Translations under genes and position numbers: made by a program
The notes under the pieces: generated by a model
Told to the model about the DNA's origin: nothing
What the model saw: only the letters and a program-made list of their open reading frames with translations
Database searches by the model: none
Assembly (NCBI GenBank): GCA_947650365.1
Contig: OX393551.1
Span: forward strand, 1,694,001-1,758,000
Reading direction: 5' to 3'
Length of the DNA: 64,000 bases
Source of the DNA: Chamaelirium japonicum
Taxonomy: Eukaryota > Streptophyta > Magnoliopsida > Liliales > Melanthiaceae
Shown: positions 1-64,000 of the stretch, piece after piece
Layout: every line of letters starts with the position of its first letter
How positions within the stretch are numbered: position 1 is the stretch's first letter

Positions 1-1188
1 GAATGGATAGTACGAATGAATTAGAATGGATACCTTCGTGCAAATGAATTAGAATGGATCGTACGAATGAGTAAGAATGGATCGTACGAATGAAATAGAA
101 TGGATCGTATGAATGAATTAGAATGGATCGTGCGAATGAATTAGAATGGATCGTACGAATGAATTAGAATGGATCGTACGAATGAATTAGAATGGATCGT
201 ATGCATGAATTAGAATGGATCGTGCGAATGAATTAGAATAGATCGTACAAATGAATTAGAATGGATCGTACGAAGGAATTAGAATGGATCGTACGAATGA
301 ATTAGAAAGGATCGTATGAATAGATTGTGCGAATGGATTAGAATGAATCATACGATTGAGTAAGAATGGATTGTACGAATGAAATAGAATAGATCGTACG
401 AATGAATTAGAATGGATCATGCTAATGAATTAGAATTGATCGTACGAATGAATTAGAATAGATTGTGTGAATGAATTAGAATGGATCATACGAATGAATT
501 GGAATGGATACATTCGTGCGAATGAATTAGAATGGATCGTATGAATGAATTAGAGTGGATACATTCGTACAAATGAATTAGAATGGATCGTACGAATGAA
601 TTAGAATAGATTGAATTAGAATGAATCGTACGAATGAATTAGAATAGATTGTGCGAATGGATTAGAATGGATCATACGATTGAGTAAGAAAGGATTGTAC
701 AAATGAATTAGAATGGATTGTACGTATATATTAGAATGGATCGTACGAATGAATTAGAATAGATTCTACGAATGAATTAGAATGGATCGTACGAATGAGT
801 AAGAATGGATCGTACGAATAAATTAGAATGGATCGTACGAATAAATTAGAATGGATCATACGAATAAATTAGAATAGATCGTACGAATGAATTAGAATGG
901 ATCGTACGAATGAATTAGAATGGATCGTACGAATGAATTAGAATGGATCGTACGAATGAATTAGAATGGATTGTACGAATGAATTAGAATGGATCGTACG
1001 AATGAATTAGAATGGATCATATGAATGAATTAGAATGGATCGTACGAATGAATTAGAATGGATCGTACGAATGAATTAGAATGGATACATTCATGCGAAT
1101 GAATTAGAATGGATTGTACGAATAAATTAGAATGGATCGTACGAATGAATTAGAATAGATTGTACGAATGAATTAGAATGGATCGTAC
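1..1188 (+). repeat. Block 1, + orientation, about 1.2 kb
   Basis: Head-to-tail monomers. From about 882 to 1075 the run is close to canonical with few variants, which suggests recent local homogenisation. 28-bp monomers occur near 505, 555 and 1083. A 15-bp truncated unit lies near 609. The left limit is the window edge. Confidence 0.95.
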
Positions 1189-1668
1189 GTCTAATTCATT
1201 CGTACGATCCATTCTAATTCATTCATACAATCCATTCTACTTCTTTTGCACGAATGTATCCATTCTAATTCATTCGTACGATCCATTCTAATTCCTTCGT
1301 ACGATCCATTCTAATTCCTTCGTACGATCCATTCTAATTCATTCCCATGAATGTATCCATTCTAATTGATACGTACGATCCATTCTTTTTCATTCGTATG
1401 ATCCATTTTTACTCATTCGTACGATCCAATCTAATTCATTCATACGATCCATTCTACGATCCATTCTAATTCATTCGTACGTTCCATTCTAATTCATTAG
1501 CATGATCAATGCTAATTCATTCGTACGATCCATTCTAATTCATTCGTACAATCCATTCTATTTCATTCGTACGATCCATTCTTACTCATTCGTATGATCC
1601 ATTCTAATTCATTTGAACGAATGTATCCATTCTAATTCATTCGTACAATCCATTCTTACTCATTCGTA
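1189..1668 (-). repeat. Block 2, - orientation
   Basis: Starts where GATCGTACG meets TCTAATTCATTCG. It holds the left arm of the palindrome and then CTTACTCATTCGTA, after which the array flips at 1668 to AATGAATTAGAATGG. The same switch and its flanks recur at about 28249. Confidence 0.93.
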
Positions 1669-2120
1669 ATGAATTAGAATGGATACATTCGTGAAAAAGA
1701 ATTAGAATGGATTGTATGAATGAATTAGAATGGATCGTGCAAATGAATTAGAATGGATCGTGCGAATGAAATAGAATGGATCGTACGAATGAATTAGCAT
1801 TGATCATGCTAATGAATTAGAATGGAACGTACGAATGAATTAGAATGGATCGTAGAATGGATCGTATGAATAAATTAGATTGGATCGTACGAATGAGTAA
1901 GAATGGATCATACGAATGAAATAGAATGGATCGTACGTATCAATTAGAATGGATACATTCATGGGAATGAATTAGAATGGATCGTACGAAGGAATTAGAA
2001 TGGATCGTACGAAGGAATTAGAATGGATCGTACGAATGAATTAGAATGGATACATTCGTGCAAAAGAAGTAGAATGGATTGTATGAATGAATTAGAATGG
2101 ATCGTACGAATGAATTAGAC
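1669..2120 (+). repeat. Block 3, + orientation
   Basis: Holds the right arm of the palindrome from about 1773. Near 1669-1765 it matches 28251-28350 closely, including an A-rich 28-bp unit (GTGAAAAAG here, GTGCAAAAG there). It ends at GAATTAGAC, the mirror of the 1189 switch. Confidence 0.93.
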
Positions 2121-3518
2121 GTACGATCCATTCCAATTCATTCGTACAATCTATTCTAATTCAGTCGTAAGATCCATTCTAATTTATTCGTACAATCCAT
2201 TCTAATTCTTTCGCACGAATGTATCCATTCTAATTCATTCGTACGATCCATTCTAATTCATTCATATAATCCATTCTAATTCATTCGTACGATCCATTCT
2301 AATTCCTTCGTACGAATGTATCTACTCTAATTCATTGATACGATCTATTCTAATTCATTCGCACGATCCATTCTAATTCATACGTACGATCCATTCTAAT
2401 TCATTCATATGATCCATTCTAATTCATTCGTACGATCCGTTCTAATTCATTCGCATGATCTATTCTAATTCATTCATACAATCCATTCTTTTTTATTCGT
2501 ACGATCCATTCTAATTCATTCGCAAGATCCATTCTAATTCATTCATACAATCCAATCTAATTCATTCATACGATCCATTCAAATTCATTAATACGATCCA
2601 ATCTAATTCATTCATATGATCCATTCTAATTCCTTCGTACGATCCATTCTAATTTATACGATCCATTCTAATTCATTCGTAAGATCCATTATAATTCATT
2701 CATATGATACATTCTAATTCCTTCGTATGATCCATTCTAATTCATTAGTACGGTATGATTCATTCTAATTCATTCATACGATCTATTCTAATTCATTCGC
2801 ACGAATATATCCTTTCTAATTCATTCGTACGATCCATTCTAATTCATTCGCACAATCCATTCTAATTCATTCGTACGATCCATTCTAATTCATTCGCACG
2901 ATCCATTCTAATTCATTCATTCAATCCATTCTAATTCTTTTGCACGAATGTATCCATTCTAATTCATTCGTTCGATCCATTCTAATTCATTCGTACGATC
3001 CATTCTAATTCCTTCGTACGATCCATTGTAATTCATTCGTACGATCCATTCTAATTCATTCGCATGATCCATTGAATTAGAATGGATACATTCGTGCGAA
3101 TCCATTCAATTTCATTCGTACGATCCATTCTAATTCATTCGCACGATCCATTCTAATTCATTCATACGATCCATTCTATTTCATTCGTACGATCCATTCT
3201 AATTCATTCGTACGATCCATTCTAATTCATTCGCATAATCTATTCTAATTCATTCGTACGATCCATTCTAATTCATTCGCACGATTCATTCTAATTCATT
3301 CATACGATCCATTCTATTTCATTCGTACGATCCATTCTTACTCATTCGTACGATCCATTCTAATTCATTTGCACGAAGGCATCCATTCTAATTCATTCGT
3401 ACTATCCATTCTAATTCCTTCGTACGATCCATTCTAATTCCTTCGTACGATCCATTCGGATACATTCGTGCAAATCCATTCTATTTCATTCGTACGATCC
3501 ATTTTAATTCATTCGCAC
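2121..3518 (-). repeat. Block 4, - orientation, with two tiny + inserts
   Basis: Pyrimidine-rich reading of the monomer. Short + inserts lie at about 3073-3101 and 3457-3474; each ends in a J1-like junction (GTGCGAATCCATTC, or GTGCAAATCCATTC in the second). They look like junctions whose + arm was almost deleted. The M2 tag (CGAAGGCATCC form) is near 3375. Confidence 0.92.
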
Positions 3519-4701
3519 CTTCGTGCAAATGAATTAGAATGGATCATACGAATGAGTAAGAATGGATCGTACGAATGAAATAGAATGGATCGTATGAATG
3601 AATTAGAATGGATTAGAATGGATCGTATGCAGGAATTAGAATCGATCGTACGAATGAATTAGAATAGATTGTGCGAATGAATTAGAATGGATCGTATGAA
3701 TGAATTGGAATGGATACATTCGTGCGAATTCATTAGAATGGATCGTACGAATGAGTAAGAATGGATCGTACGAATGAATTAGAATGGATTGAATTAGAAT
3801 GAATCCTACGAATGAATTAGAATGGATCGTATGAATGAATTAGAATGGATCGTACGAATGAATTAGAATGGATTGAATTAGAATGAATTGTACGAATGAA
3901 TTAGAATGAATCATACCGTACGAATGAATTAGAATGGATCATACGAAGGAATTAGAATGGATCGTACGAATGAATTAGAATGGATCGTACGAATGAATTA
4001 GAATGGATCGTACGAATGAAATAGAATAGATCGTACGAATGAATTAGAATGGATCGTACGAATGAATTAGAATGGATACATTCGTGCGAATGAATTAGAA
4101 TGGATAGTACGAATGAATTAGAATGGATACCTTCGTGCAAATGAATTAGAATGGATCGTACGAATGAGTAAGAATGGATCGTACGAATGAATTAGAATGG
4201 ATCGTATGAATGAATTAGAATGGATCGTGCGAATGAATTAGAATGGATCGTATGAATGAAATAGAATGGATTGTACGAATGAGATAGAATGGACCGTACG
4301 AATGAATTAGAATATGGATCGTGCGAATGAATTAGAATCGATCGTACGAATGAGATAGAATGGATCGTACGAATGAATTAGAATGGATACATTCATGAGA
4401 ATGAATTAGAATGGATCATACGAATGAATTAGAATGGATCGTACGAAGGAATTAGAATGGATCATATGAATGAATTAGAATTAGAATGGATCGTACGAAT
4501 GAGTAAGAATGGATCATACGAATGAAATAGAATGGATCGTACCTATCAATTAGAATGGATACATTCATAGGAATGAATTAGAATGGATCGTACGAATGAA
4601 TTAGAATGGATCGTACGAATGAATTAGAATGGATCGTATGAATGAATTAGAATGGATCGTGCGAATGAATTAGAATGGATCGTACGAATGAAATAGAATA
4701 G
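3519..4701 (+). repeat. Block 5, + orientation
   Basis: Starts inside a CACCTTCGTGCAAATG word (M2). Carries a GAATCATACCGTACG unit near 3910 and a second M2 near 4131. An AT insertion (GAATATGGATCG) near 4310 is a marker shared with units at about 19765, 27350, 37245 and 39967. Ends in the complement form of J1. Confidence 0.93.
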
Positions 4702-5018
4702 ATTCGCACGAATGTATTCATTCTAATTCATTCGTACGATCCATTCTAAGTCATTCGCACGATCTATTCTAATTGATTCGCACGAATGTATCCATTCTAA
4801 TTCATTCGTATGAATGAATTAGAATGGATCATACGAATGAATTAGAATGGATACATTCGTGCGAATAAATTAGAATGGATCGTGCGAATGAATTAGAATG
4901 GATCGTACGAATTAATTAGAATGGATACATTCGTGCGAATCCATTCTATTTCATTCGTACGATCCATTCTAATTCATTCGCACGATCCATTCTAATTCAT
5001 TCATACGATCCATTCTAC
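4702..5018. repeat. Short alternating blocks (-, +, -)
   Basis: Minus 4702-4810, plus 4811-4939, minus 4940-5018. The entry is the complement form of J1 and the middle + block ends in J1, so two opposite copies of the same junction lie only about 240 bp apart. Confidence 0.9.
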
Positions 5019-7323
5019 GTATGAATGAATTAGAATGGATCGTGCGAATGAATTAGAATGGATTGTACGAATGAATTAGAATTGATACATTCGTGCGAAT
5101 GAATTAGAAAGGATCGTACGAATGAAATAGAATGGATCGTACGAATAAGTAAGAATGGATCGTACGAATAAAATAGAATGGATCGTATGAATGAATTACA
5201 ATGGATCGTGCGAATGAATTAGAATGGATTGTATGAATGAATTAGAATGGATACATTCGTGCGAATGAATTAGAATGGATCGTACAAATGAAATAGAATG
5301 GATCGTACGAATGAATTAGAATGGATCATACGAAGGAATTAGAATGGATCGTACGAATTAATTAGAATGGATCGTACGAATGAATTAGAATGGATACATT
5401 TGTGCGAATGAATTAGAATGGATCATACGAATGAATTAGAATGGATTCATTCGTGCGAACGAATTAGAATGGATCGTACGAATTAAGTAAGAATGGATCG
5501 TACGAATGAATTAGAATGGATTGAATTAGAATGAATCGTACGAATGAATTAGAATGGATCATACGAAGGAATTAGAATGGATCGTACGAATGAATTAGAA
5601 TGGATCGTACGAATGAATTAGAATGGATCGTACGAATGAATTAGAATGGATCGTACGAATGAATTAAAATGGATGGTATGAATTAAATTGAATGGATCGT
5701 ACGAATGAATTAGAATGGATCGTACGAATGAATTAGAATGGATCGTACGAAGGAATTAGAATGGATCGTACGAAGGAATTAGAATGGATAGTACGAATGA
5801 ATTAGAATGGATACCTTTGTGCAAATGAATTAGGATGGATCGTACGAATGAGTAAGAATGGATTGTACGAATGAAATAGAATGGATCGTATGAAAGAATT
5901 AGAATGGATCATGCGAATGAATTAGAATGGATCGTACGAATGAATTAGAATGGATACATTCGTGCGAATGAATTAGAATGGATCGTATGAATGAATTAGA
6001 ATCGATCGTACGAATGAATTAGAATGGATCAAGCGAATGAATAAGAATGGATTGTGCGAATGAATTAGAATGGATCGTACGAATGAAATAGAATGGATTG
6101 TACGAATGAGATAGAATGGATCGTACGAATGAATTAGAATGGATACATTCATGCGAATGAATTAGAATGGATCAGACGAATGAATTAGAATGGATTCATT
6201 CGCTCGAATGAATTAGAATAGATTGTGCGAATGAATTAGAATGGATCGTACGAATGAATTAGAATGGACACATTCATGCGAATGAATTAGAATGGATCGT
6301 ATGAGTGTGAATGAATTAGAATGGATCGTGCGAATGAATTAGAATGGATCGTATTAATGAATTAGAATGGATCGTGCGAATGAATTAGAATGGATCGTAC
6401 GAATGAGTAAGAATGGATCGTGCGAATTAATTAGAATGGATCGTACGAATGAAATAGAATGGATTCATTCGTGCGAATGAATTAGAATGGATCGTACGAA
6501 TGAGTAAGAATGGATCATACAAATGAATTAGAATGGATCGTACGAATGAATTAGAATGGATTGAATTAGAATGGATCATATGAATGAATTAGAATAGATT
6601 GTACGAATGAATTAGAATGGATCGTACGAATGAATTAGAATGGATCAAACGAATGAATTAGAATGGATACATTCGTGCGAATGAATTAGAATGGATCATA
6701 CGAATGAATTAGAGTTGATACATTCGTGTGAATGAATTAAAATGGATAATACGAATGAGTAAGAATGGATCGTATAATTAGAATGGATCGTATGAATGAA
6801 TTAGAATGGATACATACGAATGAATTAGAATGGATCGTATGAATGAATTAGAATGGATCGTGCGAATGAATTAGAATGGATCGTACAAATGAATTAGAAT
6901 GGATCATATGAATGAATTAGAATGGATCGTAGGAATGAATTAGAATGGATCGTACTAATGAATTATAATAGATTGTGTGAATGAATTAGAATGGATCGTA
7001 CGAATGAATTAGAAAGGATACATTCGTACAAATGAATTAGAATGGATCGTACGAGTGAGCTAGAATGGATACATTCGTACAAATGAATTAGAATGGATCG
7101 TACGAATGAATTAGAATGGATACATTCGTGCGAATGAATTAGAATGGATCGTACGAATGAATTAGAATGGATCGTTTGAATAAATTCGAATGGATCGTAC
7201 TTATGAATTCGAATGGGTCGTTTGAGTGAATATGAATGGATCGTGCGAATGAATTAGAATGGATTGTACGAATGAATTAGAATGGATCGTACGAATGAAT
7301 TAGAATGGATACATTCGTGCGAA
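5019..7323 (+). repeat. Block of + orientation, longest + run (2.3 kb)
   Basis: Starts at CATTCTACGTATGAATG. Carries M2 near 5811, a GTGTGAATG insertion near 6304, an M4 copy near 6711 and a degenerate T region (GTTTGAATAAATTCG) near 7173-7230. The last 100 bp are the standard lead-in to J1, which closes the block. The stretch about 6665-6950 is homologous to about 56362-56640. Confidence 0.94.
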
Positions 7324-8141
7324 TCCATTCTATTTCATTCGTACGATCCATTCTAATTCATTCGCACGATCCATTCTAATTCATTCGTACGATCCATTCT
7401 AATTCATTCGTACGAACCATTCTAATTCATTCGTACGATCCATTCTAATTCATTCGTACGATCCATTCTAATTCCTTCGTATGATCCATTCTAATTCATT
7501 CGTACGATATGATTCATTCGAATTCATTCGTACGATTCAATCTAATTCAATCCATTCTAATTCATTCGTACGATCCATTCTAATTCATTCGTACGATCCA
7601 TTCTAATTCATTCGTACGATCCATTCTAATTCATTCGTACGATCTATTCTAATTCATTCGTACGATTCATTCTAATTCTAATTCATTCGTACGATCCATT
7701 CTAATTCCTTCGTACGATCCATTCTAATTCATTCGTACGATCCATTCAAATTCATTCGCACGATCCATTCTAATTCATTCGTACGATCCATTCTATTTCA
7801 TTCATACGATCCATTCTAATTCATTCATACGATCTATTCTAATTCTTTCGCACGAATGCATCTATTCTAATTCATTCGTACGATCCATTCTAATTCATTC
7901 GTACGATCCATTCTAATTCATTCGTACGATCCATTCTAATTCATTTGCACAATCTATTCTAATTCATTCGCACGATCCATTCTAATTCATGCATACGATC
8001 CAATCTAATTCATTCGCACGAATGTATCCATTCTAATTCATTCGCACAATCTAATTCATTCATACGATCCATTCTAATTCATTCGTACGATCTATTTTAA
8101 TTCATTCATACGATCCATTCTAATTCATACAATCTATTCTA
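7324..8141 (-). repeat. Block of - orientation, 0.8 kb
   Basis: Opens with the CTATTTCATTCG unit that normally follows J1. From about 7420 to 7730 many monomers are canonical. A double CTAATTCTAATTC at about 7671 marks a short-unit slip. It ends at the tail-to-tail dyad ATTCTAATTAGAAT. Confidence 0.93.
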
Positions 8142-9037
8142 ATTAGAATGGATCGTACTAATGAATTAGAATAGATTGTGCGAATGAATTAGAATGGATC
8201 GTACGAATGTATTAGAAAGGATATATTCATGCGAATGAATTAGAATTGATCGTATGAATGAATTAGATAGGATCGTATTAATGAATTAGAATGGATCGTG
8301 CGAATGAATTAGAATGGATCGTACGAATGAATTAGAATGGATAGATTCGTGCGAATGAATTTGAATGGATCGTACGAAGGAATTAGAATGGATAGTACGA
8401 AGGAATTAGAATAGATCATACGAAGAAATTAGAATGGATCGTACGAATGAATTAGAATGGATCGTATGAATGAATTAGAATGGATCGTGCGAATGAATTA
8501 AAATGGATCGTATGAATGAAATAGAATGGATCGTATGAATTAGAATGGATCGTACGAATGAAATAGATTGGATCGTACGAATGAATTAGAATAGATTGTG
8601 CGAATGGATTAGAATGGATCATACGATTGAGTAAGAATGGATTGTACGAATGAAATAGAATAGATCGTACGAATGAATTAGAATGGATCATGCTAATGAA
8701 TTAGAATTGATCGTACGAATGAATTAGAATAGATTCTGCGAATGAATTAGAATGGATCGTACGAATGAATTGGAATGGATACATTCGTGCGAATGAATTA
8801 GAATGGATCGTATGAATGAATTAGAGTGGATACATTCGTACAAATAAATTAGAATGGATCGTACGAATGAATTAGAATGGATACATTCGTGCGAATGAAT
8901 TAGAATGGATCATATGAATGAATTAGAATGGATCGTTTGAGTGAATGCGAATGGATCGTGCGAATGAATTAGAATGGATTGTACGAATGAATTAGAATGG
9001 ATCGTACGAATGAATTAGAATGGATACATTCGTGTGA
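8142..9037 (+). repeat. Block of + orientation, 0.9 kb
   Basis: Contains the first copy of the 0.58-kb module (about 8185-8765) and the T tag near 8936. It closes with a J1 variant, GTGTGAATCCATTCTATTTTATTCG. Confidence 0.93.
8185..8765 (+). repeat. 0.58-kb higher-order module, copy 1
   Basis: Parallel to about 10060-10638 at a constant offset of 1873 bp and inverted at about 13300-13870. Shared odd units include GAAAGGATATATTC, GGATAGATTCGTGCG, GAAGAAATTAG and the reverse of the M1 tag. The 240-bp core 8452-8691 translates on the complement with only scattered differences from the cores at 10325-10564 and 13371-13610. Confidence 0.9.
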
Positions 9038-9180
9038 ATCCATTCTATTTTATTCGTACGATCCATTCTAATTCATTCGCACGATCCATTCTAATTCATT
9101 CATACGATCCATTCTAATTCATTCGTACGATCCATTCTAATTCATTCGCACGAATGTATCCATTCTAATTCATTCGTACA
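9038..9180 (-). repeat. Short - block between J1 and K2
   Basis: Only about 143 bp. It ends at K2, the near-palindrome around TACATGTA centred at 9180.5, with arms of about 24 bp and one mismatch. The same switch occurs at 25628.5 and 42046.5 with the same preceding 28-bp unit. Confidence 0.92.
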
Positions 9181-10991
9181 TGTATGAATGAATTAGAATG
9201 GATCGTACGAATGAATTAGATTGGATCGTGCGAACGAATTAGAATGGATCGTACGAATGAATTAGAATGGATCGAACGAATGAATTAGAATGGATACATT
9301 CGTGCGAAAGAATTAGAATTGATCGTATGAATGAATTAGAATGGATCGTATGAATGAAATAGAATGGATCGTACGAATGAAATAGAATGGATCCTATGAA
9401 TGAATTAGAATGGATCATGTGAATGAATTAGAATGGATCGTACGAATAAATTAGAATAGATTGTGCGAATGAATTAGACTGGATCGTACGAATGAATTAG
9501 ATTGGATCGTACGAATGAATTAGAATGGATCGTGCGAATGAATTAGAATGGATCGTACGAATGAATTAGAATGGATCGTATGAATGAAATAGAATGGATC
9601 GTATGAATTAGAATGGATCGTACGAATGAAATAGAATGGATCGTATGAATGAATTAGAATAGATTGTGCGAATGGATTAGAATGGATCATACGATTGAGC
9701 AAGAATGGATTGTACGAATGAAATAGAATAGATCGTACGAATGAATTAGAATGGATCGTATGAATGAATTAGAATGGATCGTGCGAATGAATTAGAATGG
9801 ATCGTACGAATGAATTAGAATGGATCGTACGAAGGAATTAGAATGGATCGTACGAATGAATTAGAATAGATCGTACGAATGAATTAGAATGGATACGAAT
9901 GGATCGTACGAATGAGTAAGAATGGATCGTACGAATGAAATAGAATGGATCGTACGAATGAATTAGAATGGATTGAATTAGAATGAATCGTACGAATGAA
10001 TTAGAATGGATCATACGAATGAATTAGAATGGATCGTACGAATGAATTAGAATGGATTGAATTAGAATGGATCGTACGAATGAATTAGAAAGGATATATT
10101 CGTGCGAATGAATTAGAATAGATCATATGAATGAATTAGATTGGATCATATTAATGAATTAGAATGGATCGTGCGAATGAATTAGAATGGATCGTACGAA
10201 TGAATTAGAATGGATAGATTCGTGCGAATGAATTTGAATGGATCGTACGAAGGAATTAGAATGGATCGTACGAAGGAATTAGAATAGATCATACGAAGAA
10301 ATTAGAATGGATCGTACGAATGAATTAGAATGGATCGTATGAATGAATTAGAATGGATCGTGCGAATGAATTAAAATGGATCGTATGAATGAAATAGAAT
10401 GGATCGTATGAATTAGAATGGATCGTACGAATGAAATAGAATGGATCGTACGAATGAATTAGAATAGATTGTGCGAATGGATTAGAATAGATCATACGAT
10501 TGAGTAAGAATGGATTGTACGAATGAGATAGAATAGATCGTACGAATGAATTAGAATGGATCATGCTAATGAATTAGAATAGATCGTACGAATGAATTAG
10601 AATAGATTGTGCGAATGAATTAGAATGGATCGTACGAATGAATTAGAATGGATTGTACGAATGAAATAGAATAGATCGTACGAATGAATTAGAATGGATC
10701 ATGCTAATGAATTAGAATTGATCATACGAAGGAATTAGAATGGATCGTACGAATGAATTAGAATGGATCGTTGGAATTAATTAGAATGGATCGTACGAAG
10801 GAATTAGAATGGATCGTACGAAAAAATTAGAATGGATAGTACGAATGAATTAGAATGGATACCTTCGTGCAAATGAATTAGAATGGATTGTACGAATGAA
10901 TTAGAATGGATCATACGAATGAATTAGAATGGATTGTACGAATGAATTAGAATGGATCGTACGAATGAATTAGAATGGATACATTCGTGCG
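9181..10991 (+). repeat. Block of + orientation, 1.8 kb
   Basis: Opens at K2. Holds a partial M1-type stretch near 9580-9740, two 15-bp truncated units near 9970 and 10050, the second copy of the 0.58-kb module, and M2 near 10860. Closed by J1. Confidence 0.94.
10060..10638 (+). repeat. 0.58-kb higher-order module, copy 2
   Basis: Same order of variant units as 8185-8765. Divergence begins near 10638, where this copy goes into GGATTGTACG and the other into GAATTGGAATGG. Its inverted partner at about 13300-13870 gives a mirror centre near 11967.5. Confidence 0.9.
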
Positions 10992-12726
10992 AATCCATTC
11001 TATTTCATTCGTACTATCCATTCTAATTCATTCGTACGACCCATTCTAATTCATTCGTACGATCCATTCTAATTCATTCGTACAATCCATTCTTACTCAA
11101 TCGTATGATCCATTCTAATCCATTCGCACAATCTATTCTAATTCATTCGTACGATCCATTCTATTTCATTTGCACAAAGGTATCCATTCTAATTCATTCG
11201 TACTATCCATTCTAATTCCTTTGTACGATCCATTCTAATTCATTCGTACGATCCATTCTAATTCATTCGCACGATCCATTCTATTTCATTCGTACGATCC
11301 TTCTTATGATCCATACTAATTCATTCGTACGGTATGATTCATTCTAATTTATTCGTACGATTCATTCTAATTCAATCCATTCTAATTCATTCGTACGATC
11401 CATTCTAATTCATTAATACGATCCAATCTAATTCATTCATACGATCCATTCTAATTCATTCGTACGATCCATTCAAATTCATTCGCACGATCCATTCTAA
11501 TTCATACGCACGATCCATTCTAATTCATTCATACGATCCATTCTAATTCATTCGTACGATCAATTCTAATTCATTCATACGATCCATTCTAATTCATTCG
11601 TACGATCCATTCTAATTCATTCGCAAGATCCATTCTAATTCATTCGTACGATCCATTCTTACTCAATCGTATGATCCATTCTAATCCATTCGCACAATCT
11701 ACTCTAATTCATTGGTACGATCCATTCTATTTCATTTGCACGAAGGTATCCATTCTAATTCATTCGTACTATCCAATCTAATTCCTTCGTACGATCCATT
11801 CTAATTCATTCGTACGATCCATTCTAATTCATTCGCACGATCCATTCTAATTCATTCGTACGATCCATTCTATTTCATTCATACGATCCATTCTAATTCA
11901 TTCATACGATCCATTCTAATTCATTCGCACGATCCATTCTAATTCATTCGCATGATCCATTCTAATTCATTCGTACGATCGATTCTAATTCATTCATACG
12001 ATCCATTCTAATTCATTCGCACGAATGTATCCATTCTAATTCATTCGTACGATCCATTCTTACTCATTCGTGCGATCCATTCGTATCCATTCTAATTCAT
12101 TCGTACGATCTATTCTAATTCATTCGTACGATCCATTCTAATTCATTAATACGATCCAATCTAATTCATTCGTATGATCCATTCTAATTCATTCGCACGA
12201 TCCATTCTAATTCATTCGCACGATCCATTCTAATTCATTCATACGATCCATTCTAATTCACTCGTACGATCCATTCTAATTCATTCATACGATCCATTCT
12301 AATTCATTCATATGATCCATTCTAATTCATTCGTACGGTATGATTCATTCTAATTCATTCGTACGATTTATTCTAATTCAATCCATTCTAATTCATTCGT
12401 ACGATCCATTCTAATTCATTCGTACGATCCATTCTAATTCATTCATACGATCCATTCTAATTCATTCGTACGATCCATTCTAATTCATTCGCACGATCCA
12501 TTCGCATTCACTCAAACGATCCATTCTAATTCATTCATATGATCCATTCTAATTCATTCGCACGAATGTATCCATTCTAATTCATTCGTACGATCCATTC
12601 TAATTCATTTGTACGAATGTATCCACTCTAATTCACTCATACGATCCATTCTAATTCATTCGCACGAATGTATCCATTCCAATTCATTCGTACGATCAAT
12701 TCAAATTCATTCGCACGATCTATTCG
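10992..12726 (-). repeat. Block of - orientation, 1.7 kb
   Basis: Two M1-like stretches (about 11095 and 11655) each lead into an M2 complement (about 11167 and 11737), so a subsegment of roughly 570 bp is tandemly duplicated within the block. A short slip, CCTTCTTATGATCC, is near 11299. The T tag complement (CATTCACTCAAACG) is near 12513. It ends in CTATTCGAGAATGG. Confidence 0.92.
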
Positions 12727-13024
12727 AGAATGGATCGTATTAATGAATTTGAATGGATCGTGCGAATGAATTAGAATGGATCGTACGAATGAGTAAGAAT
12801 GGATCGTGCGAATGAATTAGAATGGATCATATGAATGAATTAGAATGGATCGCATGAATGAATTTGAATGGATTGTATAAATGAATTAGAATGGATCGTA
12901 CGAATGAATTAGAATGGATCGTTTGAGTGAATGCGAATGGATCGTGCGAATGAATTAGAATGGATTGTACGAATGAATTAGAATGGATCGTACGAATGAA
13001 TTAGAATGGATACATTCGTGCGAA
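12727..13024 (+). repeat. Short + block carrying T tag and J1
   Basis: From about 12903 through 13080 this matches 61567-61745 with one difference in the bases I compared, across the T tag, two ordinary monomers, the 28-bp monomer and the J1 switch. It is the cleanest example of the T-J1 module. Confidence 0.92.
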
Positions 13025-13028
13025 TCCA
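13009..13028. other. J1 junction, reference copy (+ to - switch)
   Basis: Core GGATACATTCGTGCGAATCC: a 28-bp monomer whose dyad CATTCG-TG-CGAAT runs directly into CCATTC of the opposite orientation, with four bases (GTAT) of the expected reverse monomer missing. This form also closes + blocks at about 4939, 7323, 9037, 10991, 19374, 21833, 26731, 39206, 40435, 44002, 46669, 48099, 49769, 55249 and 61687. Its exact complement GGATTCGCACGAATGTATCC closes them at about 4701, 14922, 16056, 17552, 28809, 30066, 34050, 46055 and 49156. Together these are about half of all + to - switches. Confidence 0.93.
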
Positions 13029-14508
13029 TTCTATTTCATTCGTACGATCCATTCTAATTCATTCGCACGATCCATTCTAATTCATTCATACGATCCATTC
13101 TAATTCATTCATACGATCCATTCTAATTCATTCGTGCGATCCATTCGCATTCACTCAAACGATCCATTCTAATTCATTCATATGATCTATTCTAATTCAT
13201 TCGCACGAATGTATCCATTCTATTTCATTCGTACGATCCATTCTAATTCATTCGTACGATCCATTCTAATTCATTCGTATGATCTATTCTAATTCATTCG
13301 TACGATCCATTCTAATTCATTCGCACAATCTATTCTAATTCATTCATACGATCTATTCTAATTCATTAGCATGATCCATTCTAATTCATTCGTACGATCT
13401 ATTCTATTCCATTCGTACAATCCATTCTTACTCAATCGTATGATCCATTCTAATCCATTCGCACAATCTATTCTAATTCATTCGTACGATCCATTCTATT
13501 TCATTCGTACGATCCATTCTAATTCATACGATCCATTCTATTTCATTCATACAATCCATTTTAATTCATTCGCACGATCCATTCTAATTCATTCATACGA
13601 TCCATTCTAATTCATTCGTACGATCCATTCTAATTTCTTCGTATGATCTATTCTAATTCCTTCGTACGATCCATTCTAATTCCTTCGTACGATCCATTCA
13701 AATTCATTCGCAAGAATCTATCCATTCTAATTCATTCGTACGATCCATTCTAATTCATTCGCACGATCCATTCTAATTCATTAATACGATCCAATCTAAT
13801 TCATTTATACGATCTATTCTAATTCATTCGCACGAATATATCCTTTCTAATTCATTCGTACGATCCAAATTCATTTATCCGTACGATCTATTCTATTTCA
13901 TTCGTACGATCCATTCTTATCGTACGATCCATTCTAATTCAATCCATTCTAATTCATTCGTACGATCCATTCTAATTCATTCGTACGATCCATTCTAATT
14001 CATTCGTACGATTCATTCTAATTCAATCCATTCTAATTCATTCGTACGATCCATTCTTACTCATTCGTACGATCCATTCGTATCCATTCTAATTCATTCG
14101 TACGATCTATTCTAATTCATTCGTACGATCCATTCTAATTCCTTCGTACGATCCATTCTAATTCATTCGTACGATCCATTCTAATTCATTCGCACGATCC
14201 ATTGTAATTCATTCGCACGATCCATTCTAATTCATTCGTAAGATCCATTCTATTTCATTCATACGATCCATTCTAATTCATTCATACGATCTTTTCTAAT
14301 TCTTTCGCACGAATGTATCCATTCTAATTCATTCGTACGATCCATTCTAATTCATTCACACGATCCATTCTAATTCATTCACACGATCCATTCTAATTCA
14401 TTCGCACGATCCATTCTAATTCATTCGCACGATCCATTCTAATTCATTCGTACGATCCATTCTAATTCATTCTAATTCATTCGCACGATCCATTCTAATT
14501 CATGCATA
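13025..14508 (-). repeat. Block of - orientation, 1.5 kb
   Basis: T tag complement near 13150, the inverted 0.58-kb module at about 13300-13870, then M3 at about 13866. The part 13741-14340 is homologous to 52841-53420, with at least one 23-bp length difference. The end, CATGCATACGAATGAATCG, is a rare switch form. Confidence 0.93.
13300..13870 (-). repeat. 0.58-kb higher-order module, inverted copy
   Basis: Reverse complement of 10060-10638, with the module's GAAAGGATATATTC word read as GAATATATCCTTTC near 13848. The 240-bp core at 13371-13610 is also present with few changes at 20311-20550. Confidence 0.9.
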
Positions 14509-50254: not shown

Positions 50255-52072
50255 ATGAATTAGAATGGATCGTATGAGTGTGAATGAATTAGAATGGATT
50301 GTGCGAATGAATTAGAATGGATCGTACGAATGAATTAGAATGGATCGTACGAATGAATTAGAATGGATACATTCGTGCAAAAGAAGTAGAATGGATTGTA
50401 TGAATCAATTAGAATGGATCGTGCGAATGAATTAGAATGGATCGTACGAATGAGTAAGAATGGATCGTACGAATGAATTAGAATGGATCGTACGAATGAA
50501 TTAAAATGGATACATTCGTGCGAATGAATTAGAATGGATTGTGCGAATGAATTAGAATAGATTGTGCGCATGAATTAGAATGGATCGTACGAATGAATTA
50601 GCATGGATCGTACGAATGAATTAGAATGGATCGTATAAATGAATTAGAATGGATCGTAATAATGAATTAGAATGGATCCTACGAATGAATTAGAATAGCG
50701 TGCGAATGAATTAGAATGGATCGTACGAATGAATTTGAATGGATCGTATGAATGAATTAGAATAGATTGTACGAATGAAATAGAATAGATCGTACGAATG
50801 AAATAGAATGGATTCGTATGAATGAATTAGAATGGATCGTGCGAATGAATTAGAATGGATCGTACTTATGAATTAGAATGGGTCATACGAATGAAATAGA
50901 ATGGATCGTACGAATGAATTAGAATGGATCGTGTGAATGAATTAGAATGGATCGTACGAATGACTTAGAATGGATCGTTCGAATGAATTAGAATAGATTG
51001 TGCGAATGAATTAGAATGGATCGTACGAATGAATTAGAACGGATACATTCGTGCGAATGAATTAGAATGGATCGTATGAGTGTGAATGAATTAGAATGGA
51101 TTGTGCGAATGAATTAGAATGGATCGTACGAATGAATTAGAATGGATCGTACGAATTAATTAGAATGGATACATTCGTGCAAAAGAAGTAGAATGGATTG
51201 TATGAATGAATTAGAATGGATCGTGCGAATGAATTAGAATGGATCGTACGAATGAGTAAGATGGATCGTACGAATGAATTAGAATGGATCGTACGAATGA
51301 ATTAGAATGGATACATTCGTGCGAATGAATTAGAATGGATCATATGAATGAATTAGAATGGATCGTTTGAGTGAATGCGAATGGATCGTGCGAATGAATT
51401 AGAATGGATCGTACGAATGACTTAGAATGGATTGTTCGAATGAATTAGAATAGATTGTGAGAATGAATTAGAATGGATCGTACGAATGAATTAGAACGGA
51501 TACATTCGTGCGAATGAATTAGAATAAATCGTATGAGTGTGAATGAATTAGAATGGATTGTGCGAATGAATTAGAATGGATCATACGAATGAATTAGAAT
51601 AGATCGTACGAATGAATTAGAATGGATACATTCGTGCAAAAGAAGTAGAATGGATTGTATGAATGAATTAGAATGGATCGTGCGAATGAATTAGAATGGA
51701 TCGTGCGAATGAATTAGAATGGATACATTCATGCGAATGAATTAGAATGGATCATACGAATGAATTAGAATGGATTCATTCGCGCGAATGAATTAGAATG
51801 GATCGTACGAATGAATTAGAATGGATCGTACAAATGAATTAGAATGGATCGTATGAATGAATTATAATGGATCGTGCGAATGAATTAGAATGGATCATAT
51901 TAATGAATTTGAATGGATTGTACGAATGAATTAGAATGGAACGTACGAATGAATTAGAATGGATCGTAGAATGGATCGTATGAATGAATTAGATTGGATC
52001 GTACGAATGAGTAAGAATGGATCATACGAATGAATTAGAATGGATCGTACGAATGAATTAGAATGGATACAT
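50255..52072 (+). repeat. Block of + orientation, 1.8 kb
   Basis: Three GTGTGAATG insertions (near 50277, 51078, 51537), each followed by a 28-bp unit with GTGCAAAAGAAG (near 50374, 51177, 51650), point to tandem duplication of a 0.5-0.8 kb subsegment. T is near 51365. GATCGTAGAATGG near 51962 matches the palindrome arm. Confidence 0.93.
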
Positions 52073-52212
52073 TTCGTACGATCCATTCTAATTCATTCGT
52101 ATGATCTATTCTAATTCATTCATGCAATCCAGTCTAATTCATTCGTACGAAGGAATTAGAAAGGATCGTATGAATGAATTAGAATGGATCGTACGAATGA
52201 AATAGAATGGAT
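52073..52212. repeat. Two very short blocks (-, +)
   Basis: Minus 52073-52145 and plus 52146-52212. The exit is at GAATGGATCCATTC, a 14-bp palindrome on GGATCC, a rare + to - switch that needs no 28-bp monomer. Confidence 0.9.
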
Positions 52213-54112
52213 CCATTCTTACTCATTCGTTCTAATTCAATCCATTCTAATTCATTCGCATGATCCATTCTAATTCATTCGTACGATCGATTCTAATTCA
52301 TTCATACGATCCACTCTTCTAATTCATTCGTACGATTCATTCTAATTCATTAGTACGATCCATTCGATCCAGATCCATTCTAATTCATTCGCACAATCTA
52401 TTCTAATTCATTCGTAGGATCCATTCTAATTCATTACTACGATCCATTCTAATTCATTCATACGATCCATTCAAATTCATTCGTCCGATCCATTCTAATT
52501 CATTCGCACGATCCATTCTAATTCATTCATACGATCCATTCTAATTCATTCGTATGTATCCATTCTAATTCATTCATACGATCCATTCTAATTCTACGAT
52601 CCATTCTTACTCATTCGTATTATCCATTTTAATTCATTCACACGAATGTATCAACTCTAATTCATTCGTACGATCGATTCTAATTCATTCGCACGATCCA
52701 TTCTAATTCATTCATACGATCCATTCTAATTCCTTCGTACGATCCATTTTAATTCATTCGCACGATCCATTCTAATTCATTCATACGATCCATTCTAATT
52801 CATTCGTACGATCCATTCTAATTTCTTCGTATGATCCATTCTAATTCATTCGCACGATCCATTCTAATTCATTAATACGATCCGATCTAATTCATTCATA
52901 CGATCTATTCTAATTCATTTGCACGAAAATATCCTTTCTAATTCATTCGTACGATCCAAATTCATTTATCCGTATGACCTATTCTATTTCATTCGTACGA
53001 TCCATTCTTATCGTACGATCCATTCTAATTCAATCCATTCTAATTCATTCGTACGATCCATTCTAATTCATTCGTACGATCCATTCTAATTCAATCGTAC
53101 GATTCATTCTAATTCAATCCATTCTAATTCATTCGTACGATCCATTCTATTTCATTCGTACGATCCATTCTTACTCATTCGTACGATCCATTCGTATCCA
53201 TTCTAATTCATTCGTACGATCTATTTTAATTCATTTGTACGATCAATTCTAATTCCTTCGTACGATCCATTCTAATTCATTCGTACGATCCATTCTAATT
53301 CATTCGCACGATCCATTCTAATTCATTCGTACGATCCATTCTATTTCATTCATACGATCCATTCTAATTCATTCATACGATCTATTCTAATTCTTTCGCA
53401 CGAATGTATCCATTCTAATTCATTCGTACGATTCATTCTAATTCGTTCGCACGATCCATTCTAATTCATTCATACAATCCATTCTAATTCTTTTGCACGA
53501 ATGTATCCATTCTAATTCATTCGTTCGATCCATTCTAATTCATTCGTACGATCCATTCTAATTCATTCGCACGATCCATTCTTACTCATTCGTACGATCC
53601 ATTCTAATTTATTCGCACGATCTATTCTAATTCATTCATACGATCCATTCTAATTTATTCGCACGATCCATTCTAATTCCTTCGTATGATCTATTCTAAT
53701 TCATTCGTACGGTATGATTCATTCTAATTCATTCGTATGATTCATTCTAATTCAATCCATTCTAATTCATTCGTATGATCCATTCTAATTCATTCGTACG
53801 ATCCATTCTAATTCATTCGTACGATTCATTCTAATTCAATCCATTCTAATTCATTCATACGATCCATTCTAATTCATTCGTACGATCTATTCTATTTCAT
53901 TCGTACAATCCATTCTTACTCAATCGTATGATCTATTCAAATCCATTTGCACAATCTAGTCTAATTCATTCGTACGATCCATTCTAATTCATTCGTACGA
54001 TCCATTCTAATTCATTCGCACAATCTATTCTAATTCATTCGTACGATCCATTCTAATTCATTCGCACGATCCATTTTAATTCATTCATACGATCCATTCT
54101 AATTCATTCGTA
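52213..54112 (-). repeat. Block of - orientation, 1.9 kb
   Basis: A J2 remnant near 52365 followed by TAGGATCC and ATTACTACG; M4 complement at 52637-52658; M3 near 52958; M1 (ATGATCTATTC form) near 53920. 52841-53420 parallels 13741-14340. Ends at K1. Confidence 0.94.
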
Positions 54113-55934
54113 CGAATGAGTAAGAATGGATCGTACGAATGAAATAGAATGGATTGTACGAATGAATTAAAATGGATACATTCGTGCGAATGAATTAGGA
54201 TGGATCGTATGAATGAATTAGAATGGATCGTACGAAGGAATTAGAATGGATCGTACGAATGAATTAGAATGGATCATATGAATGAATTAGAATGTATCGT
54301 ACGAATGAATTAGAATGGATCGTATGAATGAATTAGATTGGATCGTATTAATGAATTAGAATGGATCGTACGAATGAATTAGAATAGATCGTACGAATGA
54401 ATTAGAATGGATACGAATGGATCGTACGAATGAGTAAGAATGGATCTATTCTAATTCATTCATACGATCCATTCTAATTCATTCGCACGCTATTCTAATT
54501 CTTTTGTACGATCCATTCTAATTCATTCGCACGATCCATTCTAATTCATTCATACGAATCCATTCTATTTCATTCGTACGATCTATTCTATTTCATTCGT
54601 ACAATCTATTCTAATTCATTCATACGATCCATTCTAATTCATTCGTACGATCCATTCTAATTCATTCGCACACTATTCTAATTCATTCGTAGGATCCATT
54701 CTAATTCATTACTACGATCCATTCTAATTCATTCATACGATCCATTCTAATTCATTCGTACGATCCATTCTAATTCATTCGTACGATCCATGCTAATTCA
54801 TTCGTACGATCCATTCTAATTCATGCGCACAATCTATTCTAATTCATTCGCACAATCTATTCTAATTCATTCGTACGATCCATTCTAATTAATTCGTACG
54901 ATCCATTCTAATTCATTCGCACGCTATTCTAATTCATTCGTAGGATCCATTCTGATTCATTCGTGCAAAAGAATTAGAATGGATCGTACGAATGAATTAG
55001 AATGGATCGTATGCATGAATTAGAATGGATCGTACGAATGAATTAGAATGGATCGTGCGAATGAATTAGAATGGATCATATGAATGAATTAGAATGGATC
55101 GTATGAATGAATTAGAATGAATCGTGCGAATAAATTAGAATGGATCGTATGAATGAATTAGAATGGATCGTACGAATGAAATAGAATGGATTGTATGAAT
55201 GAGATAGAATGGATCGTACGAATGAATTAGAATGGATACATTCGTGTGAATCCATTCTATTTCATTCGTACGATCCATTCTAATTCATTCGCACGATCCA
55301 TTCTAATTCATTCATACGATCCATTCTAATTCATTCGTACGATCCATTCTATTTCATTCGTACGATCGTACGAATGAATTAGAATGAATCGTACGAATGA
55401 ATTAGAATGAATCATACCGTACGAATGAATTAGAATGGATCATACGAATGAAATAGAATGGATCGTATGAATGAATTAGAATGGATCATGCGAATGAATT
55501 AGAATGGATCGTATGAATGAATTAGAATGGATCGTACGAATGAATTAGCATGGATTGAATTAGAATGAATCGTACGAATGAATTAGAATGAATCATACCG
55601 TACGAATGAATTAGAATGGATCATATGAAGGAATTAAAATGGATCGTACGAATGAATTAGAATGGATCGTATGAATGAATTAGAATAGATCCATTCTTAC
55701 TCATTCGTACGATCCATTCGTATCCATTCTAATTCATTCGTACGATCTATTCTAATTCATTACTACGATCCATTCTAATTCATTCATACGATCCATTCTA
55801 ATTCATTCGTACGATCCATTCTAATTCATTCGCATGATCCATTCTAATTCATTCGTACGATCGATTCTAATTCATTCATACGATCCATTCTAATTCATTC
55901 ATACGATCCATTCTTACTCATTCGTACGATCCAT
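54113..55934. repeat. Six alternating blocks
   Basis: Plus 54113-54446, minus 54447-54962, plus 54963-55249, minus 55250-55366, plus 55367-55690, minus 55691-55934. The - block 54447-54962 has three shortened units (CGCACGCTATTC, CGCACACTATTC). CATACCGTACG occurs near 55417 and 55599. Only one join (55249) is J1. Confidence 0.9.
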
Positions 55935-57252
55935 TGAATTAGAATGGATACGAATGGATCGTACGAATGAGTAAGAATGGATCGTACGAATGAAATAGAA
56001 TGGATCGTACGAATGAATTAGAATGGATTGAATTAGAATGAATCGTACGAATGAATTAGAATGGATCGTACGAATGAATTAGAATGGATCGTACGAATGA
56101 ATTAGAATGGATCGTACGATAAGAATGGATCGTACGAATGAAATAGAATAGATCGTACGGATAAATAAATTTGGATCGTACGAATGAATTAGAAAGGATA
56201 TATTCGTGCGAATGAATTAGAATGGATCATATGAATGAATTAGAATGGATCGTATGAATGAATTAGAATGGATCGTGCGAATAAATTAGAATGGATCGTA
56301 TGAATGAATTAGAATAGATTGTGCGAATGAATTAGAATGGATCGTACGAATGAATTAGAATGGATACATTCGTGCGAATGAATTAGAATGGATCATACGA
56401 ATGAATTAGAGTTGATACATTCGTGTGAATGAATTAAAATGGATAATACGAATGAGTAAGAATGGATCGTAGAATTAGAATGGATCGTATGAATGAATTA
56501 GAATGAATACATACGAATGAATTAGAGTGGATCGTATGAATGAATTAGAATAGATCGTGCGAATGAATTAGAATGGATCGTACAAATGAATTAGAATGGA
56601 TCGTATGAATGAATTAGAATGGATCGTAGTAATGAATTAGAATGGATTGTACGAATGAATTAGAATGGATCGTATGAATGAATTAGATTGGATCGTAATA
56701 ATGAATTAGAATGGATCGTACGAATGAATTAGAATAGATCGTACGAATGAATTCGAATGGATACGAATGGATCGTACGAATGAGTAAGAATGGATCGTAC
56801 GAATGAATTAGAATGGATCGTACGAATGAATTAGAATGGATCGTACGTATGACTTAGAATGGATCGTTCGAATGAATTAGAATGGATCGTACGAAGGAAT
56901 TAGAATGGATAGTACGAATGAAGTAGAATGGATCATTCGTGCAAATGAATTAGAATGGATCGTACGAATGAGTAAGAATGGATCGTACGAATGAAATAGA
57001 ATGGATCATATGAATGAATTAGAATGGATCGTGCGAATGAATTAGAATGGATCGTATGAATGAATTAGAATGGATCGTACGAAGGAATTAGAATGGATAG
57101 TACGAATGAATTAGAATGGATACCTTCGTGCAAATGAATTAGAATGGATCATACGATTGAGTAAGAATGGATCGTACGAATGAAATAGAATGGATCGTAT
57201 GAATGAATTAGAATGGATCGTATGAATGAATTATAACGGATACATTCGTGCG
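55935..57252 (+). repeat. Block of + orientation, 1.3 kb
   Basis: From 55940 to 56220 it is the inverted copy of about 52930-53210, with M3 read as CGTACGGATAAAT near 56154. M4 is at 56408 and M2 near 57120. It ends in a damaged J1 (GTGCGACATTC). Confidence 0.93.
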
Positions 57253-57568
57253 ACATTCTATTTTATTCTTACGATCCATTCTTACTCATTCGTACGATCC
57301 ATTCTAATTCATTCGCACGATCCATTCTAATTCATTCATATGATCCATTCTAATTCATTCGCACGAATGTATCCATTCTAATTCATTCGTACGATCCATT
57401 CTAATTCATTTGTACGAATGTATCCACTCTAATTCATTCGTACGATCCATTCTAATTCATTTGTACGAATGTATCCTTTCTAATTCATTCGTACGATCCA
57501 TTCTAATTCATTCGTACGATCCATTCTAACTCATTCGCACGATCCATTCTAATTCATTCGCACGATCC
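57253..57568 (-). repeat. Short - block
   Basis: Three 28-bp units near 57365, 57418 and 57470 are spaced by about two monomers, the densest cluster of them on the - strand. Ends CGATCCTACGAATG, as at 19911. Confidence 0.92.
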
Positions 57569-57586
57569 TACGAATGAATTAGAATA

Positions 57587-62293: not shown

Positions 62294-63146
62294 CGAAGGA
62301 ATTAGAACGGATCGTACGAAGGAATTAGAATGGATAGTACGAATGAATTAGAATGGATACCTTCGTGCAAATGAATTAGAATGGATCGTACGAATGAGTA
62401 AGAATGGATCGTACGAATGAAATAGAATGGATCGTATGAATGAATTAGAATGGATCGTGCGAATGAATTAGAATGGATCGTACGAATGAATTAGAATAGA
62501 TTGTGCGAATGAATTAGAATGGATCGTACGAATGAATTAGAATGGATCGTACGAATGAATTAGAATGGATCGTACGAATGAATTAGAATGGATCGTGCGA
62601 ATGAATTAGAATGGATCGTACGAATGAATTAGAATAGATTGTGCGAATGAATTAGAATGGATCGTGCGAATGAATTAGAATGGATCGTACGAATGAATTA
62701 GAATGGATCGTACGAATGAATTAGAATGGATCGTGCGAATGAATTAGAATAGATTGTGCGAATGAATTAGAATGGATCGTGCGAATGAATTAGAATGGAT
62801 CGTACGAATGAATTAGAATAGATTGTACGAATGAATTAGAATGGATCGTACGAATGAATTAGAATGGATCGTACGAATGAATTAGAATGGATCTTATGAA
62901 TGAATTAGAATGGATCGTGCGAATGAATTAGAATGGATCGTACGAAGGAATTAGAATAGATCATACGATGAAATTAAAATGGATCGTACGAATGAATTAG
63001 AATGGATCGTATGAATGAATTAGAATGGATCGTGCGAATGAATTAAAATGGATCGTACGAAGGAATTAGAATGGATCATGCGAATGAATTAGAATAGATC
63101 ATACGAATGAATTAGAATGGATCGTACGAATGAATTAGAATGGATA
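62294..63146 (+). repeat. Block of + orientation, most regular run in the window
   Basis: M2 near 62358, then about 62430-62930 almost entirely canonical monomers. Within it GAATAGATTGTGCG units recur at 62498, 62636 and 62751, spaced 138 and 115 bp (6 and 5 monomers). A related GAATAGATTGTACG unit follows 69 bp later. Ends GGATATATTCTAATTC. Confidence 0.94.
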
Positions 63147-63819
63147 TATTCTAATTCATTCGTACGATCCATTCTAATTCATTCATACGATCCATTCTAA
63201 TTCATTCATATGATCCATTCTAATTCATTCGTACGGTATGATTCATTCTAATTCATTCGTACGATTCATTCTAATTCAATCCATTCTAATTCATTCGTCC
63301 GATCCATTCTAATACATTCGTACGATCCATTCTAATTCATTCATACGATCCATTCGTATCCATTCTAATTCATTCGTACGATCTATTCTAATTCATTCGT
63401 ACGATCCATTCTAATTCATTATTACGATCCAATCTAATTCATTCATACGATCCATTCTATTTCATTCGTACGATCCATTCTTACTCATTCGCACGATCCA
63501 TTCTAATTCATTCGCATGATCCATTCTAATTCATTCGTACGATCCATTCTATTTCATTCATACGATCCATTCTAATTTATTCATACGATCCATTCTAATT
63601 CATACGATCCATTCTAATTCATTCATACGATCCATTCTAATCCATTCGCACGAATGTATCCATTTTAATTCATTCGCACAATCTATTCTAATTCATTCGT
63701 ACGATCAATTCTAATTCATTAGCATGATCCATTCTAATTCATTCGTACGATCTATTCTATTTCATTCGTACAATCCATTCTTACTCAACCGTATGATCCA
63801 TTCTAATTCATTCGCACGA
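63147..63819 (-). repeat. Block of - orientation
   Basis: CGGTATGATTC near 63234 as in the 45-50 kb units, then an M1 stretch with ACTCAACCG near 63783. The switch CGCACGAATAGTACG is unusual. Confidence 0.92.
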
Positions 63820-64000
63820 ATAGTACGAATGAATTAGAATGGATACCTTCGTGCAAATGAATTAGAACGGATCGTACGAATGAGTAAGAATGGATCATAC
63901 GAATGAATGGATCATATGAATGAATTAGAATGGATCGTTTGAGTGAATGTGAATGGATCGTGCGAATGAATTAGAATGGATTGTACGAATGAATTAGAAT
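63820..64000 (+). repeat. Block of + orientation, cut by the window end
   Basis: M2 near 63845, a fused unit GAATGAATGGATC near 63902 and a T tag (GTTTGAGTGAATGTG) near 63937. The last 60 bp are the usual lead-in to J1, which is not reached. Confidence 0.93.

Follow-up and report, generated by a model that had tools for sequence, protein, structure and literature searches.

The closest described counterpart of the sequence studied here is the satellite pair Chio1/Chio2 of Chionographis japonica, in which the two forms differ by a 5-bp deletion and one substitution, and for which CENH3 binding has been published, with an 11.1-fold CENH3 ChIP enrichment of cluster CL1 (PMC10264360). In Chamaelirium luteum, of the sister genus, the satellite Chama is CENH3-associated like the Chio family, shares the 9-mer TTCGTACGA with the 23-bp Chio monomer and is dyad-rich, but it consists of 60-bp monomers in consistently oriented arrays at macro-monocentromeres (PMC12722358), in contrast to the 23- and 28-bp monomers and 105 orientation runs per 64 kb described below. 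Tyba of Rhynchospora pubera, like Chio, forms a repeat-based holocentromere, but it does so with thousands of regularly spaced units and a suggested Helitron-linked spread, whereas Chio lies in few long arrays (as outlined in PMC10264360). Chio arrays have been reported at about 100 places, and the window analysed here (the whole stretch of 64,000 nucleotides), together with its genome, bears on how the satellite spread to them, how its uniformity is kept up and how important its dyad is.

The window is tiled throughout by a 23-bp unit on alternating strands (TRF), and its autocorrelation is highest at lag 23 (0.754), with peaks also at multiples of 23 and at lags of n x 23 + 28 (74, 97, 120, 143 and 166). 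A decoder assigned 56,807 bases to 23-mer states, 7,193 to 28-mer states and none to background, with 6.1% mismatches and 104 orientation switches. Since the prior of its background state was low (1e-5), short inserts could be absorbed; a word test separate from the decoder covered 99.3% of the window, compared with 6.8% of a letter-shuffled 20,000-base piece, and the longest stretch without coverage was 13 bases. The initial annotation had described 23-bp and 28-bp units in both orientations without any non-satellite insert, and this is true inside the window, while the whole unit does hold an insert: at C3:1.260-1.268 Mb none of three 100-bp samples is satellite, which is present on either side at 1.256 and 1.272 Mb. 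Among the 2,444 monomers of exact length, 2,241 have 23 bp and 203 represent the minority 28-bp form, with the consensus GAATGGAT[ACATT]CGT(G/A)CGAATGAATTA, the bracketed 5 bp being absent from the 23-mer; exactly one 5-bp deletion and one substitution separate the two. The palindromic 8-mer TCGTACGA (identical to its reverse complement) is found 976 times on the plus strand of the window, CATTCGTGCGAATG 36 times and CATTCGNNCGAATG 79 times, and TTCGTACGA sits in the reverse-strand monomer CATTCGTACGATCC. A strict higher-order period was not established from the spacing of the 28-mers, which is broad (mean 7.1 monomers), and neither the Rfam nor the tRNA scan gave a match in the window.

The window shares with Chio1/Chio2 the two monomer lengths, an 8-bp dyad, mixed orientation, long arrays and a large genome share, and no feature in the part of the account consulted conflicts with its membership (PMC10264360). 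The Chionographis japonica satellite named in the initial annotation is thus matched in lengths, in the 5-bp and 1-bp difference, in a dyad with a predicted stem and in mixed orientation. Membership is supported by the published monomer description, against which the letters of the window were matched by description, and because the monomers fit it, the array is one already known, having been published as Chio1/Chio2 (PMC10264360). The window is almost certainly internal to the outermost left-hand Chio1/Chio2 centromere unit sampled on scaffold C3 of Chionographis japonica, and probably forms part of a CENH3 platform built by block copying.

Genome-wide satellite searches were made with exact patterns, as a DNA similarity search with a consensus 69-mer skips common words and gave none. 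The exact 23-mer occurs 2,168,724 times, about half per strand, in the assembly analysed (1,518,659,071 bases, 3,253 contigs), which is close but not identical to the published primary assembly (1,526,137,861 bp, 3,786 primary contigs; PMC10264360). From this count and the density in the window (440 per 64 kb), a rough extrapolation gives about 315 Mb of satellite, or about 21% of the assembly, of the same order as the published share of about 16-17% without being equal to it (PMC10264360). The satellite was found again at C3:16 and 30 Mb. Short repeats that run on without a break are sometimes artefacts, and either a sequencing or assembly artefact or a short-period satellite of another lineage might be proposed in place of Chio; both are extremely improbable, as several independent monomer details fit the available Chio1/Chio2 description, arrays of the satellite are present on many contigs, and on two scaffolds its junction with a retroelement-like flank is precise to the base.

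Table 1. Features located in the 64,000-nucleotide window, in order of position.
Feature	Position	Strand	Evidence
Uninterrupted Chio1/Chio2 array, 105 alternating orientation blocks	1..64000	.	TRF, decoder, word test
Segment collinear with C2:2033383-2045839	904..13043	+	12,057 aligned bases, 98.6% identity by substitutions, 24 indels
Random distinctive 45-mer	3583..3627	+	One in window; 228 exact copies genome-wide
Exact copy of recurrent F-to-R junction J1	4923..4952	+	Window and genome pattern counts
Random distinctive 45-mer	18012..18056	+	One in window; one in whole assembly
R-to-F reflection on TCGTACGA, uninterrupted inverted repeat	48560..48637	.	Folds at -38.2 kcal/mol as DNA
Segment collinear with C12:67983706-67991045	50154..57529	+	7,330 aligned bases, 99.3%
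Segment collinear with C4:92836001-92843153, minus strand	50154-57440		7,095 aligned, 98.8%
Random distinctive 45-mer	51751..51795	+	One in window; 10 exact copies genome-wide
Random distinctive 45-mer	52848..52892	+	One in window; 14 exact copies genome-wide, on seven contigs

The orientation blocks of the window have a median size of 452 bp, a mean of 610 bp and a maximum of 2,695 bp. Were every switch between them an independent local inversion, varied junctions would be no surprise, and the R-to-F junctions are indeed varied, 11 of 52 fitting a reflection on the 24-mer around TCGTACGA. Against this, half of the F-to-R switches (26/52) are copies of one junction and have a diagnostic variant in common, and the F-to-R junction in its exact 43-bp form has 9,622 copies genome-wide. 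Junction J1 is present in 29 copies in the window (at most two mismatches) and in 18,315 near-exact copies across the genome. Independent inversion as the origin of all switches is accordingly very unlikely: half of the F-to-R junctions already contradict it, and the remainder could be independent. No literature joining centromere satellite, palindrome, strand switch and inversion was found.

Long stretches of the window recur on other assembled chromosomes (Table 1), an apparently new observation that hints at centromere copying between chromosomes. Background collinear tracts, estimated from 173 random pairs, have a median of 64 and a maximum of 245 bases. Several of the largest indels in the C2 tract measure 24, 28, 46, 74 or 97 bases. 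The base at which satellite gives way to retroelement is common to C2 and C3, the two scaffolds on which it was read (left unit boundary at C2:1,646,653 and C3:1,243,790), and the flank is 98.4% identical. For a 2-kb flank probe taken at C3:1.0 Mb, seven of the scored copies match at 99-100% (on C3, C4, C12, C14, C36, C43 and C75, the probe's own locus among them) and the other 33 at 91-92%. The satellite probe is also found on five of these seven contigs, and same-strand pairs of the two probes lie 0.70-0.80 Mb apart on C3, C4, C12 and C36 and 1.59 Mb apart on C14. Because the flank probe bears a weak gag match, its seven copies might reflect a recent retroelement burst with no block duplication, which is unlikely since contigs and distances are shared with the satellite probe. 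Comparison confined to two anchors about 0.4-0.5 Mb apart suggests that outer centromere units may move in large blocks from one chromosome end to another.

The same collinearity could also be an assembly artefact, a substantial though somewhat less probable explanation in which the primary assembly kept contigs of one unit from the second haplotype and these were joined to the ends of C2, C4 and C12. At 1.519 Gb the assembly is larger than the published 1C value of 1.368 Gb (PMC10264360), the distance to the scaffold end is about 2 Mb at each of the four main places, and C2:2.09 and C4:92.84 are as alike as alleles might be (identical across the 795 bases compared; 99.4% across 2.8 kb). C12 also carries two near-identical copies 19 kb apart, so that copy number alone is no count of loci. 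A diploid, however, has two alleles, yet the flank probe has seven copies at 99-100%, well separated from the other 33; the joint presence and spacing of the two probes likewise speak against misplaced haplotypes, as does the fact that one of the four window probes lacks a second exact copy. Part of the cross-scaffold pattern may still be due to haplotype contigs that were misplaced. With a confidence just short of even, we consider that holocentromere units move in large subterminal blocks from one chromosome to another that is not its homologue. On this reading C2, C3, C4 and C12 would carry recent copies of a single ancestral unit at their outer positions, the C2/C3 copy would include the retroelement flank and exact boundary, and one rearranged head-to-head junction would have been copied many thousands of times inside units. 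The collinear tracts, with a boundary base in common, seem to be a direct record of sequence moving from unit to unit and, if this is true, block copying would be a way of keeping a polycentric holocentromere uniform, as opposed to independent seeding, eccDNA insertion or short gene conversion alone. The recurrent junction, the collinear tracts and unit boundary shared between scaffolds, and the weak dyad conservation considered next are absent from the published Chio1/Chio2 account as far as its accessible part goes (PMC10264360).

The initial annotation had also mentioned short dyads as a proposed centromere feature where CENP-B boxes are absent; the conservation test lends no support to the view that the dyads are what functions here. 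The 8-bp dyad hairpin could be the selected CENH3-recruiting element and the remaining monomer filler, as neighbouring 23-mers are predicted to pair (consensus dimer: 8-bp stem, -6.8 kcal/mol, z -3.4) and TTCGTACGA is common to the satellite of the sister genus. This is improbable, however, for the dyad is less conserved in the window than the rest of the monomer (mean 0.901 vs 0.956), which speaks against strong sequence selection on it, and it is intact in just 918 of the 2,241 23-bp monomers. Compensatory double changes in the dyad occur about as often as independence predicts (seen/expected 0/0.1, 7/6.7, 59/52.8 and 1/2.4).

We propose that the satellite serves as the DNA platform for CENH3 nucleosomes; earlier work has demonstrated this for the family as a whole, and it is probably also true of these 64 kb. 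Its array may have been built by block copying, in which whole monomers were gained and lost, segments already bearing a strand-switch junction were copied onward and blocks would have been exchanged between units. Kinetochore identity most likely derives from CENH3 chromatin and loading factors such as KNL2, not from the TCGTACGA hairpin. KNL2 has been reported as lost in the sister genus (Cha. luteum). A search for the SANTA exon alone located it at C251:253833-253982 (profile 29-79 of 92, 37.7 bits), as expected for a retained KNL2 and consistent with Chi. japonica but not with Cha. luteum; together with the monomer features, this exon supports the link of the window to Chionographis japonica made in the initial annotation. 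A Pfam search for Borealin (PF10512) gave no match anywhere in the genome, a miss that does not show absence, and so did not confirm the chimeric RPS17-Borealin reported for Chionographis japonica. Two near-full-length RPS17 loci are present in the genome.

The window consists of satellite throughout, which bears out the initial annotation's claim of an uninterrupted array of 23- and 28-bp monomers in both orientations. TRF returned a 23-bp unit of alternating orientation, autocorrelation peaked at lag 23 and its multiples and also at n x 23 + 28, and a decoder in which each monomer had a state on either strand, alongside a low-prior background state, assigned 0 of the 64 kb to background, with 6.1% mismatches and 105 orientation runs. 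Exact-length monomers number 2,241 (23 bp) and 203 (28 bp), with the consensus forms GAATGGATCGTACGAATGAATTA and GAATGGATACATTCGTGCGAATGAATTA, the short form lacking five bases of the long one and differing at one further base. These lengths and this 5-base plus 1-base difference are those given for Chio1 (23 bp) and Chio2 (28 bp) of Chionographis japonica in the available part of the published description (PMC10264360), and by this match the satellite of the window is almost certainly Chio1/Chio2. The link to this holocentric species also holds through the 9-mer TTCGTACGA, an additional identity feature drawn from the available text of PMC12722358, and through a SANTA exon found in the genome, which is consistent with Chi. 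japonica and inconsistent with Chamaelirium luteum of the sister genus. The assembly (3,253 contigs, 1,518,659,071 bases) is close but not identical to the published one and holds 2,168,724 exact copies of the 23-mer (1,078,459 forward, 1,090,265 reverse). The available description reports that the Chio1/Chio2 cluster makes up 16.11% of the genome, is enriched 11.1-fold for CENH3, and forms 100 units of mixed orientation averaging 1.89 Mb (PMC10264360). The satellite is already known, and what is new is evidence on the movement of its arrays and on its dyad, which is worth pursuing with existing data.

On scaffold C3, which carries the window at positions 1,694,001-1,758,000, 20 pieces of 2 kb were sampled, more densely around the window, and six contained satellite (1.4, 1.6, 1.9, 2.6, 16 and 30 Mb). 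The left edge of the unit, as we call one long Chio array, lies at C3:1,243,790, and satellite persists at 2.00 and 2.10 Mb. Within the unit, C3:1.260-1.268 Mb is non-satellite, with satellite on either side at 1.256 and 1.272 Mb, and is possibly a transposable-element insertion. The sample at 2.2 Mb (2200001-2202000) is also non-satellite, flanked by satellite at 2.1 and 2.6 Mb, and represents either a large insert or a gap separating two adjacent units.

Four random 45-mers, each single in the window, in one orientation and at least five mismatches from consensus, have 14, 228, 10 and 1 exact copies genome-wide; three of them have copies on other scaffolds and one has none. Contexts were aligned for 12 of the 14 copies of the first probe, 12 of the 228 of the second together with the window, and all ten of the third, against a background tract length of median 64 and maximum 245 bases (173 pairs). 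With the first probe, the tract common to the window and C12 is 2,062 bases long at 99.3%, and that of C2:2.09 and C4:92.84 Mb is 2,844 at 99.4%, the copies at C3:72 Mb, C8 and C2:121.8 Mb being more remote (94-96% to the window). The second probe gave a tract of at least 2,845 bases at 98.8% with C2:2.04 Mb, the window's other tracts reaching at most 271 bases, and the third only tracts of 111-180 bases for the window, no more than the background range. On C2, C3, C4 and C12, 1.7-2.1 Mb separate the common tracts from the scaffold end. The offset to C2 is nearly constant (338.5 kb at window base 904, 344 kb at 52848), so C2:2.03-2.10 Mb is probably the collinear counterpart of the window, as judged from stretches near both ends.

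Long matches of the window to other scaffolds, from alignment of 10-kb pieces
Window	Counterpart	Orientation	Identity
904-13043	C2:2033383-2045839		98.6%
50154-57529	C12		99.3%
50154-57440	C4	reverse	98.8%

The array also starts at an identical base beside the same retroelement-like sequence at C3:1,243,790 and C2:1,646,653, with flanks 98.4% identical (973 of 989 aligned bases, one gap) and 61 boundary satellite bases from the C3 side identical on C2. About 300 flank bases resemble, at 78%, a retroelement-like sequence at C3:1.0 Mb that matches gag weakly (E 9.1e-05; 23.1 bits, under the 24.1 cut-off). Window base 904 lies 451 kb beyond the boundary on C3, and the corresponding distance on C2 is 387 kb, so that the two blocks, compared at their ends, are unequal in length by about 64 kb. 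Judged by sequence comparison, the outer centromere units at several ends of chromosomes resemble duplicates of a single block. The chief rival explanation is that second-haplotype sequences were misplaced in an assembly that is larger than the measured 1C, which could account for a single pair (C2 and C4, for instance). When 40 of 6,660 candidates for a 2-kb flank probe (C3:1000001-1002000) were scored, seven copies including the probe itself matched at 99-100%, on C3, C4, C12, C14, C36, C43 and C75, and seven copies in a diploid hardly fit misplaced haplotypes, unless there was a retroelement burst. C3, C4, C12, C14 and C36 bear both the first satellite probe and a 99-100% flank copy, at same-strand spacings of about 0.75, 0.70, 0.80, 1.59 and 0.73 Mb, respectively. 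C2 has the satellite probe without any 99% flank copy among the 40 scored, which counts against one uniform block. The 33 other scored copies match at 91-92%, and some of them are no farther than about 0.35 Mb from a scaffold end (C2, C4, C5, C6, C7).

Orientation switches in the window comprise 52 from forward to reverse (F-to-R) and 52 R-to-F. A recurrent F-to-R junction, J1, coincides with 26 of the former and none of the latter; it occurs 29 times at up to two mismatches (20 plus, 9 minus; three away from decoder switches), two extra matches with five mismatches being excluded. Similarity of the flanks spans about -55 to +130 bases (31 sequences, ungapped). Genome-wide, the exact 43-mer has 9,622 copies, and a 30-mer at up to two mismatches 18,315 vs 0 for the reversed control. 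Common breakpoints and a common variant argue for the copying of a single J1 event, from which its copies would descend. The R-to-F switches are more diverse, 11 of the 52 being reflections on the 24-mer around TCGTACGA. J1 density is uneven, with 29 copies in the 64-kb window and 0 in the 2-kb satellite samples at C3:16 and 30 Mb; units may vary in junction density. Neither a recurrent junction nor a shared unit boundary was found reported in the available passages of PMC10264360 and PMC12722358 or among the literature-search listings, and the published higher-order cluster CL73 may contain J1.

For C1, 15 listed copies of the exact J1 junction were compared over 3 kb of context with 15 on C2 and the 29 in the window; these loci were chosen for the exact junction rather than at random, and the median identity over all 1,711 pairs was 69%. 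Full-length identity is 82-98% among the C1 copies at 1.75, 17.2-17.9, 51.0, 75.1 and 134.9 Mb, with stretches at 96-99% interrupted by dips, which may reflect exchange between units of one scaffold; a second group (28.0, 30.65 and 50.2 Mb) stands at 0.85-0.98, and the copy at 52.02 Mb is outside both (0.69-0.75). Between C1 and C2 or the window, the maximum is 0.81-0.82.

The dyad TCGTACGA, which in silico could form a hairpin, is unbroken in 918 of the 2,241 monomers of the window. Selection to keep its pairing left no sign there, either in mean conservation (0.901 at the eight dyad positions vs 0.956 at the other 15) or in compensatory double changes, which at the four pairs equal expectation (seen/expected 0/0.1, 7/6.7, 59/52.8 and 1/2.4). 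A role of the dyads in bulk may still be compatible with this. Transitions affect 11-22% of monomers at three of the four dyad CpG bases and 2% at the fourth; CpG decay accounts for only part of the variation, because a non-CpG dyad A is G in 20% and a G outside the dyad varies in up to 10%. Positions 8, 9, 11 and 12 of the 23-mer (0-based), namely three CpG sites and the one non-CpG A to G, form a mutation hot spot within the dyad.
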